NCBI GenBank assembly: GCA_944389525.1 | Contig: CALXMR010000006.1 | Location: 1 to 49,190 of the forward strand | Direction: 5' to 3' | Source: an uncultured Alphaproteobacteria bacterium | Lineage (GTDB): Bacteria > Pseudomonadota > Alphaproteobacteria > Rs-D84 | DNA length: 49,190 nt | Shown here: piece by piece, positions 34,371 through 36,551 of the stretch | Layout: the number at the start of each line of letters is the position of its first letter | Numbering within the stretch: position 1 is the first letter of the stretch | Program-made: the position numbers and the translations under genes | The notes under the pieces: model-generated | Told to the model about the DNA's origin: nothing | What the model saw: the letters and a program-made list of their open reading frames with translations, nothing else | The model's database searches: none

Positions 34371-34399
34371 TTGTTATAAGATTAAAAATTTGATAAAAT
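34371..34399 (+). promoter_or_regulatory. Promoter of the structured RNA / secreted-protein operon
   Basis: TTGTTA (34371-34376), 17 bases, TAAAAT (34394-34399). Start of RNA expected near 34406, within the first hairpin. The end of tmk is only 6 bases upstream of the -35. Confidence 0.6.
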
Positions 34400-34400
34400 A

Positions 34401-34603
34401 TACCCTGATATGATGTGTTATCATATCGGGGTATAGCAACCCGTAATTCGAGGGCATCGATTCTTGTCCAAGAACCGATGAAAACACTCCTGCTTATATC
34501 AGGCAGGAGGATGGTGGAATAACCAAATACACCATACTATTGTCTCTCGAATATAGTTGCTAACCTCCTGCCACCGTAAGAAAAATCGGTGGTTTTATTT
34601 TGT
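34401..34603 (+). ncRNA. Unassigned multi-hairpin RNA ending in a terminator (leader RNA or riboswitch-like)
   Basis: A 12-bp or longer hairpin (34403-34414 with 34420-34431) is followed by a multibranch domain. It is closed by tagcaac/gttgcta (34434-34440 with 34556-34562) and attcgag/ctcgaat (34446-34452 with 34546-34552). Inside are three hairpins: catcg-a-ttctt/aagaa-c-cgatg (34455-34480), ctcctgc/gcaggag (34487-34509) and atggtg/caccat (34511-34535). ggcaggagg (34502-34510) is also a perfect complement of cctcctgcc (34564-34572), which touches the 5' arm of the terminator ccaccg/cggtgg (34571-34592, then ttttatttt). The RNA can therefore switch between two pairings, as an attenuator or riboswitch would. 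I match it to no known class. Confidence 0.65.
34571..34603 (+). terminator. Terminator at the end of the structured RNA
   Basis: ccaccg (34571-34576) with cggtgg (34587-34592), then ttttatttt, only 14 bases before the next start codon. Being upstream of the operon it can end an independent RNA or attenuate the genes downstream. Confidence 0.8.
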
Positions 34604-34617
34604 GGGGATGGGGCAAA

Positions 34618-35460
34618 ATGAAAATAAAACATATTGTTATCTATGCGTGTATCGCGGTGTTTATATCGATATATAATTTGAATGCTGCAGATTCAGACAT
34701 AAGTATGCAAGATTTGGGTGTGTTTGCTTCTTTAAAGGGCCTTGAGAGTCAATTAAAACCAATCAAAGATCGCATTTCTAATTATGATCCCGCATTTTCA
34801 CAACAACTGGAAATGATGTCAGATGAAAATCAATTAATCGCTATTCGTACATGGTTGGCAGAAAAATCATTCGATTTTTATTATGATGAGTATATGCGTA
34901 TGATGCAAAATGCATCCGAAGAAACGGGACGGCAAATTAAAATATCATCTATAATACGAGATGTTGATAATAAAGGTGGCTGGGAAAATGTTGGTACAGA
35001 ATTCTGGCTGGACGGCGGCGATTTAGATGATGAAGAAAAATGTTATAACCTGTTGGAACGACGCGCATGTGATTATCCTGCGGGTTTTATGGAATTTAGA
35101 ATTGAATTTATCCCAGGTACAGAACTGGCAGTGTTTATGGACAAACCAGAAGAAAATGTCCGATATCAAATAACAATCACATTAAACAAAAACGAAACAT
35201 CGTCTATAAAAGATTATTATCTGTTATTCAGTGGGCAAAAATACAAATATGATGAATTCCATGCATGGCGCAACCAAGAATGCGCCGATATTCGTGCAGG
35301 CAAATATATTCCTGCAACAGATACAGACCAACCAGCCCCCGGTTCACCATTTGGTGATATCGCGATAAAAATGGATACTAGCAAACAATGGAAATCGCAA
35401 ACATTACCAAGTTTTGAAGTATTACAATCCACCAGTTCATGGTTCAGCATCGGACAATAA
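34618..35460 (+). CDS. Secreted protein of unknown function
   Basis: 280 residues from ATG 34618, with GGGATGGGG just upstream. Signal peptide about 1-23 (MKIKHIVIYACIAVFISIYN, cleavage near NAA). The mature protein is acidic and contains two close Cys pairs (EKCYNLLERRACDY) plus one Cys near the C-terminus (NQECADI). A central beta-rich part has FIPGTELAVFMDKPEENVRY. No family recognised. Two bases separate it from the next gene; both lie behind the structured RNA. Confidence 0.78.
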   Translation: MKIKHIVIYACIAVFISIYNLNAADSDISMQDLGVFASLKGLESQLKPIKDRISNYDPAFSQQLEMMSDENQLIAIRTWLAEKSFDFYYDEYMRMMQNASEETGRQIKISSIIRDVDNKGGWENVGTEFWLDGGDLDDEEKCYNLLERRACDYPAGFMEFRIEFIPGTELAVFMDKPEENVRYQITITLNKNETSSIKDYYLLFSGQKYKYDEFHAWRNQECADIRAGKYIPATDTDQPAPGSPFGDIAIKMDTSKQWKSQTLPSFEVLQSTSSWFSIGQ

Positions 35461-35462
35461 AA

Positions 35463-36197
35463 ATGTATAAAAAATTATTACTGTTGTATTGTGCTGTTGT
35501 TACATATGGTGCATACGGCGCATCAAACAACATAATACCAGAAAATCCATTCATGTCTATGTATGAACAGATATCTGGTCTAGAAATTATCAGTACGTAT
35601 AATCAAACAAATGAATTATATAATGAATACATTTCCGCACGAAATCGCGAGCAGTCAACCGCAAACAAAATCTTGGGCGGTCTGTCCATTGGTGCGGCGG
35701 GAATTGGTGGAATGATGCTGGCGTCTGGTTTGGCAGAACAGCGTGCGGATGAAAATGCGATGCGTGATATGACTGCATATGTTGCGACATTTCGTTGCGA
35801 CTATGGGGCAGGGCGAAACATCCAAGGCGGCGAAACAGAAATCACATTACCCGCCGCAAATCTAATCGAATTAAAGACAGAATTTATAACACTGGCGGCA
35901 GATGTCAAAACGCGTAAAGAAACACTGGGGATGTCCGGCGGCATTGAATCAGAAATTATCATAGATGGCGCCGCCACTGGTTTATACGACAATGCTGCGG
36001 TTGGCAAAACTGACGGCGGATACGCATCTGTTTATCGCGCAATTACAGATTCAACCAGCGCGGATGCCGCCGAAATTGCTGAACAAACCGCCAGTGCCGA
36101 ACAAAAAACCAAGACAGGGGCAATTGTTGGGGGTGTTGGTGTCGTTGGTGGGGCGGTTGGCAATTTAATAATTAATCGTGATAGTGACAAAAAATAA
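35463..36197 (+). CDS. Secreted glycine-zipper module protein, paralogue of the giant protein's N-terminal module
   Basis: 244 residues from ATG 35463, two bases after the previous stop. Signal peptide about 1-20 (MYKKLLLLYCAVVTYGAYGA). From about residue 65 it is strongly similar to the giant protein at 385-5337: STANKILGGLSIGAAGIGGM, then VATFRCDYGAGRNI, GGIESEIIIDGAATGLYDN, KTDGGY, and a final GAIVGGVGVVGGAVGNLIIN. It ends where the giant protein continues into its coiled-coil and Cys-rich parts. The module is thus a mobile or duplicated unit, with two Gly-zipper segments that could insert in or span a membrane. Function unknown. Confidence 0.8.
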   Translation: MYKKLLLLYCAVVTYGAYGASNNIIPENPFMSMYEQISGLEIISTYNQTNELYNEYISARNREQSTANKILGGLSIGAAGIGGMMLASGLAEQRADENAMRDMTAYVATFRCDYGAGRNIQGGETEITLPAANLIELKTEFITLAADVKTRKETLGMSGGIESEIIIDGAATGLYDNAAVGKTDGGYASVYRAITDSTSADAAEIAEQTASAEQKTKTGAIVGGVGVVGGAVGNLIINRDSDKK

Positions 36198-36217
36198 AAA
36201 CGCCCCATTGGGGCGTT
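36197..36217. terminator. Terminator shared by the secreted-protein operon and rnpB
   Basis: aaaaacgcccc - att - ggggcgttt. On the minus strand it continues into tttttattttttt, the stronger direction, ending rnpB. Confidence 0.82.
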
Positions 36218-36551
36218 TCACAGATGTGCTATAAGCCGGATTCTGTTCTGCCCCAGGCCAGTCGTTTCCAACCACCCCAGGGGTAGCGAGCATAATTAGT
36301 CTGTATACTGTGTTACCACAATACATCAAGCCTTCTACCCGTCCCCAACGCGGGACCCGTTCAGGGGACCTATTTGAAGTTGCTGCACGCAGAGATTGCC
36401 CGTTTCACCCGATATGTTTCAATCGATTCGTCACTGTTGCTCTAATCGTCGGGTCGCCCCGCTCGGTCATTAGCCGATGCGCTGTCCCGTGCAGTCCGGA
36501 CTTTCCTCCGGCCAATTTTCATTGACCAGCTATGCTCCACTCATCTGCGTT
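36218..36551 (-). ncRNA. rnpB: RNase P RNA
   Basis: Catalytic RNA that removes tRNA 5' leaders. On the minus strand it has the conserved ggccggaggaaagtccggac near the 5' end (about 36494-36513), and agaatccggcttat near the 3' end (about 36231-36244). The terminal stem P1 is cagatg/catctg. Ends are estimated from P1 and the terminator, giving about 334 bases. A weak promoter (TTGAAT, 16 bases, TAGCAT) lies upstream near 36560-36590. Confidence 0.95.

Follow-up and report, generated by a model that had tools for sequence, protein, structure and literature searches.

The window analyzed here is a 49,190-nt stretch (contig CALXMR010000006.1) from the genome of an uncultured alphaproteobacterium of the lineage Rs-D84. 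Two consecutive genes on its (+) strand, at 34618–35460 (gene 1, 280 aa) and 35463–36197 (gene 2, 244 aa), encode proteins that look secreted, as judged by eye from a signal-like N-terminal stretch, and neither has a Pfam or PHROGs match, which agrees with an earlier note on this DNA that had described them as secreted proteins of unknown family. A consensus scan placed a promoter-like element ahead of the genes (34371–34399, (+) strand), with the −35 hexamer TTGTTA at 34371–34376, a 17-nt spacer, and the −10 hexamer TAAAAT at 34394–34399. The interval between promoter and genes (34401–34601, (+) strand) is taken up by a folded RNA that closes with an intrinsic terminator (34571–34601), formed by the stem CCACCG (34571–34576)/CGGTGG (34587–34592) and followed by TTTTATTTT. 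The 205-nt RNA folds with −79.6 kcal/mol (z = −7.1), a value equalled by none of 200 shuffles, and the order of promoter, ~200-base folded RNA, terminator, and two genes outlined in the note is thus borne out. On the (−) strand, an RNase P RNA gene (RF00010, 192 bits; 36216–36548) converges on the operon and has a bidirectional terminator (36197–36219) in common with it.

Read 5′ to 3′ on the (+) strand, the transcript starts with hairpin P0 (34401–34433), which was placed by folding and at which homologues match Rfam family RF03163 (see below). P1 (34428–34443), a short hairpin of the form GGGG..CCC(G), holds segment a1 (TAGCAAC; 34434–34440) in its loop and is followed by segment b1 (ATTCGAG; 34446–34452) and by P3, a hairpin of variable length that gives way to an A-rich linker (34455–34480; fold and alignment). 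Hairpin P4 (34487–34509) pairs CTCCTGC (34487–34493) with GCAGGAG (34503–34509). The 5′ strand of an alternative outer stem, S5 (GGCAGGAGG; 34502–34510), leads into hairpin P5 (34511–34535; ATGGTG/CACCAT, with the conserved loop GAATAACCAAATA) and hairpin P6 (34537–34556; CTAT/ATAG), whose loop contains b′ (CTCGAAT; 34546–34552), the partner of b1. Then come a′ (GTTGCTA; 34556–34562), the partner of a1, and S3 (CCTCCTGCC; 34564–34572), the 3′ strand of the outer stem, whose last two bases are also part of the terminator. The 5′ strand of P4 is a copy of S3. The positions given earlier for S5, for its two alternative partners (CTCCTGC and S3), and for the contact with the terminator proved exact.

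Among the checks that the earlier note had proposed were an Rfam search and a test of covariation among homologues. At the Rfam cut-offs, nothing except RNase P and tRNA was found in the whole window, with no riboswitch match, and even a search relaxed to an E-value of 10 returned nothing plausible for the RNA region, i.e., no strong match to a known family. Homologues were first gathered by blastn of related genomes, which yielded several per genome, ahead of differing genes, and 22 of them were used to build a covariance model, R1 (its E-values are rough, and some copies are closely related). R1 identified 4 strong copies in the window's own genome and copies in 111 of the 116 genomes of its genus, part of the Candidatus Enterousia lineage, and in 183 of the 201 genomes of the order; outside the order, ten genomes of the class gave weaker copies. 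Five near-complete genomes contained 26 to 55 copies each, i.e., up to 55 per ~1 Mb; these copy numbers are lower bounds because R1 misses many copies of a second subfamily. The latter, which is more similar to sRNA-Xcc1 (RF02221, about 40–50 bits), occurs once or more per genome, for example at C1:177741–177944 of the window's own genome (copy L051), ahead of a Cro/CI-type HTH gene. A −10-like hexamer stands at a near-fixed upstream distance in 90% of the elements (59% in shuffles), and an intrinsic terminator is present in 94%. The hosts are gut Alphaproteobacteria with reduced genomes; Enterousia has been placed in the order Rs-D84 of the Alphaproteobacteria in a paper that mentions neither small RNAs nor riboswitches (PMC12306168).

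Covariation was assessed on 111 distinct homologues, with significance determined by 500 shuffles, and the helices listed in the note were supported. For the structure consisting of a1:a′, P4, P5, P6, and the terminator, none of the 500 shuffles attained the observed covariation; the same held for the alternative S5:S3 structure, in which seven of nine pairs covary. Among individual helices, compensatory changes were found in all seven pairs of a1:a′ (98.6% paired) and in all five counted pairs of P5, P4 showed covariation in four of seven pairs (96.4% paired), CTAT/ATAG of P6 swaps with CAAT/ATTG (97.6% paired), and the terminator stem covaries too. P1 was paired in 88.8% of cells, and its covariation score was matched by 0/500 shuffles; a P1 register that fits the window alone showed no covariation, and the supported register is shifted by one base. 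Two mutually exclusive folds, with P4 and S5:S3 as the two alternatives described in the note, are therefore conserved, and one of them reaches into an intrinsic terminator that precedes an ORF, the arrangement of a transcription attenuator. The P5 loop, GAATA..GAATAA (34517–34529 of the window), is strongly conserved in the window and its homologues.

The a and b segments are hypervariable (7 + 7 nt), and each pairs with the partners in its own element. Perfect a1:a′ pairing was found in 95% of elements, compared to 12% between elements, and at least six Watson-Crick pairs between b1 and b′ in 91% of elements, compared to 5% when partners were swapped between elements. Because a1:a′, b1:b′, and the other supported helices pair as computed, the RNA contains pseudoknots, which a nested fold does not display. 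In the folded model, a1:a′ is lengthened by pairing of the P1 G-run with ACCTC of S3, and this predicted pairing may be a reason for the constancy of both.

Each a/b combination can be regarded as an address. Within a genome, a and b both agree in about 1% of element pairs, a proportion equal to that between genomes, and a test for over-dispersed addresses inside genomes, which would have hinted at selected orthogonality, was negative. The addresses are thus private in practice, with no support for selection for difference within a genome. Tandem arrays of two to four elements precede single genes (L138, 118–921; L134, 2718–3295; L056, 1501–2080; further arrays in L139, L141, and L089), and neighbors often have the same a1/b1 address. 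Both addresses were shared in 6 of 13 tandem pairs, compared to about 1% of unrelated pairs with similar identity, which would fit an upstream core acting on the leader behind it; recent duplication could account for part of this sharing.

An ORF lies directly behind 172 of 202 RNA copies (median gap of 16 nt after the match), 97% with a good Shine-Dalgarno sequence (SD); many of the copies with no adjacent ORF stand close to the end of a contig or have the next element of a tandem array behind them. Of the proteins encoded behind the RNA, 77% look secreted by a simple hydrophobicity score; secretion calls in this work rest on that score or on inspection by eye. The largest downstream group (79/172) is a single secreted-protein family, the family of gene 1 recurs behind the same RNA in relatives, and other downstream genes encode small HTH proteins, proteins of the outer-membrane beta-barrel type, and proteins that appear pilin-like by eye. 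A private anti-SD role for the constant ACCTCC was considered and rejected, since downstream SDs were not consistently complementary to it beyond the ordinary SD.

Although the RNA is unassigned at the Rfam gathering cut-offs, as the note had stated, sub-threshold matches of its relatives tie it to two Rfam families. Five remote copies matched RF02221 (sRNA-Xcc1) below the cut-off of 53 bits with the same helices; the best relatives scored 30–50 bits (47.7 bits for one copy in the window's own genome), and the window copy was not listed at an E-value of 10. In the same alignment columns, the 9-bp outer stem of RF02221 corresponds to S5:S3, with its 5′ strand equal to S5, and its two hairpins correspond to P5 and P6; the RNA thus has the outer 9-bp stem around two hairpins with ACC behind, and S5:S3, P5, and P6 all covary. 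In five genomes, 13 of 44 RF02221 matches coincided with R1 places, sharing strand and register with them, although these places make up 0.27% of the strands. In the reverse direction, a search of 31 RF02221 loci with R1 gave three matches at an E-value of up to 1, each lying on the RF02221 core. RF03163 (c4-a1b1, "a1, b1 targets of C4 antisense RNA") matched copy L109 in its 5′ part with an E-value of 0.0021, and of eight weak RF03163 matches in five genomes (E-value of up to 1, below the cut-off), four start 29–30 nt before an R1 place; the window copy itself was not matched. The a1/b1 and a′/b′ segments had been assigned before the RF03163 match came to light. In its relatives, the sRNA-Xcc1 matches lie on the 3′ half of the RNA and the c4-a1b1 matches on the 5′ half, which points to kinship with both families. 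The C4 model itself (RF01695) had no match at an E-value of ≤1 in five genomes, and a comparison with sequenced phages gave only two short matches at chance level.

Like the window RNA, sRNA-Xcc1 has a P5 with an AAUA-type internal loop, b′ in the P6 loop, and a′ ahead of the 3′ strand of the outer stem, then ACC, with complements (a1/b1) upstream; c4-a1b1 likewise starts with a 5′ hairpin, directly followed by a small hairpin with a1 in its loop and then by b1. In 30 RF02221 loci of other Proteobacteria, upstream complements were found for a′ in 93% and for b′ in 90% (33% and 36% in controls with swapped partners), and downstream complements (a2/b2), near where the following gene starts, in 63% and 67% (controls: 18% and 21%). 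Among window-type copies, in contrast, a2/b2 occurred in 5% and 27%, equal to the controls, giving no sign of a second target. The window RNA further differs from sRNA-Xcc1 in having P4 and an intrinsic terminator, and from c4-a1b1 in combining target and antisense core in a single leader with a terminator, while RF02221 loci elsewhere lack P4 (by eye) and precede phage-type genes. Genes next to these loci include phage antirepressor types (Bro-N, KilA-N, P22_AR_N, and Rha), SymE, and HSDR_N. A terminator-like hairpin (CCGCACCCGNCAG..TGCGGTTTTTT) lies between a1/b1 and the core in RF02221 loci L296–L325, and the Rfam RF02221 entry spans the 3′ core only. Published reports describe sRNA-Xcc1 ahead of symE within integron cassettes (PMC12444791) and, in Xylella, as a cluster of five (PMC12189769); our literature search, which was incomplete, found no paper that attributes a C4-type layout to it.

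The C4 antisense RNA of phages P1 and P7 (RF01695) has a three-stem core, variable a′/b′ specificity segments, targets on the same transcript, and an outer stem that begins with GG (PMC5320573), all of which are common to the window RNA: its own transcript carries, upstream, the complements of a′ and b′ in the form of a1 and b1, and S5 opens with GG, where a C4-type RNase P cut would fall. The C4 loops a′ and b′ bind the target mRNA and partly cover the ribosome-binding site, the RNA being released by RNase P (PMC5320573), whereas the window RNA lacks a target over the start codon. RNase P acts on RNAs of the C4 type, and the gene for its own RNA lies beside the operon, though this is probably a coincidence. 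The P4 CI RNA, with seqA and seqC, has the same layout, and in IsrK of Gifsy-1, transcription reads through into an antirepressor operon; in both, as would be the case here, an antisense RNA and a complementary leader on one transcript decide termination (PMC4825925). These are phage immunity loci, whereas the window RNA is a chromosomal leader, and the likeness noted here is one of layout. Group 1 C4-like sRNAs of Acinetobacter baumannii also occur as many copies with variable a′ on one bacterial chromosome (PMC5320573) but have been reported as processed sRNAs rather than as leaders with a terminator ahead of genes for secreted proteins.

On this basis, the RNA is probably a self-contained transcription attenuator of the C4/CI type, kin to the phage-type sRNA-Xcc1 and multiplied as a chromosomal control element. 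One leader would carry both the antisense core (S5-P5-P6 with b′-a′-S3) and its own targets (a1 in P1, and b1). Of the two conserved folds shown by computation, fold A contains a1:a′, b1:b′, and P4 and leaves the terminator free; in fold B, S5 pairs with S3, exposing a′ and b′ as in sRNA-Xcc1 and occupying two bases of the terminator stem. Fold A would be the default and halt transcription ahead of both genes, and fold B would let the polymerase read through. Occupancy of a1/b1, most likely by a′/b′ from a further copy of this RNA, would shift the leader to fold B, and the occupying RNA could be a terminated or processed product or come from an upstream tandem neighbor, with each copy responding to RNA of its own address. 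In 92% of elements, fold A was more stable than fold B, by a mean of 10.3 kcal/mol, and the gap fell to 2.4 kcal/mol with a1/b1 blocked, in calculations that treat pseudoknots only partly. Default termination, relieved by another RNA on a1/b1, fits best. Because the window RNA lacks a2/b2 but has P4 and a terminator overlapping S3, a device for covering start sites appears, from this comparison, to have been turned into a transcription switch. The attenuator reading leaves the conservation of the P5 loop unexplained, and we count this against it, together with the failure of the RNA to reach any Rfam cut-off, the negative result with the C4 model, the lack of a2/b2 in window-type copies, and the absence of a sign that addresses within a genome are selected to differ.

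Alternatively, the element could chiefly be a stable sRNA for other targets, with the downstream gene reached by leaky read-through alone. It has its own promoter and terminator, sRNA-Xcc1 was discovered as an ~88-nt sRNA for which trans action was proposed (PMC2996969), and Acinetobacter contains processed C4-like sRNAs in abundance (PMC5320573). This explanation is unlikely, given that 172 of the 202 copies sit so close to an ORF, nearly always one with a good SD, and that the alternative stem overlapping the terminator covaries. The note had left the choice between an attenuator and a ligand switch; the exclusive pairings do touch the terminator, whereas the ligand switch was not supported. 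A riboswitch of a new class would use the junction and the P5 loop as a pocket, with the ligand selecting P4 or S5:S3, and such a pocket could draw on stretches that are unpaired yet strongly conserved (the A-rich linker, the loop GAATA..GAATAA, and CACTAT). Some riboswitch classes are also multi-copy, tandem, and terminator-bearing. We nevertheless find a riboswitch improbable: in-register matches link the core to sRNA-Xcc1 and the 5′ part to c4-a1b1, the downstream genes, mostly for secreted and HTH proteins, share no common pathway, and the a/b segments diversify like addresses and, in RF02221 loci, are found again over start sites. Because of these hypervariable self-pairing segments, the address-sharing tandem copies, and the way in which RF02221 and RF03163 match in register below their cut-offs, the RNA is probably a C4-like RNA-RNA (antisense) device. 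An RNA-binding regulator protein that holds one fold, as in protein-dependent antitermination, would suit the conserved P5 loop and linker, which resemble a binding site, and a single factor could control all copies, yet kinship and layout favor an RNA partner and make this the most doubtful of the explanations.

The attenuator reading brings together an abundant, uncharted RNA of gut Alphaproteobacteria, the Rfam family sRNA-Xcc1, known from Xanthomonas, and the C4-type immunity RNAs of phages, which stand apart in the literature searched. If it is true, sRNA-Xcc1 would be no more than the 3′ half of a longer cis-acting unit that brings its own targets and often stands before phage antirepressors, and bacteria would have converted a C4-type device into a general leader for secreted proteins. 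Each copy supplies a definite, testable address. More speculatively, dozens of leaders per ~1 Mb genome might each give rise to a small RNA with a private 7 + 7-nt address that controls its own and neighboring leaders in trans; together they would form an RNA-only network, kin to phage immunity RNA, that sets which secreted proteins are made by a gut bacterium, a possibility that we advance tentatively. Near some copies, dispersed repeats were also observed, including a BSnc120-like match (34 bits; L085, 1267–1431) and a frame with RRRPESGG..IPAFAGMT (L073, 1681 onward).
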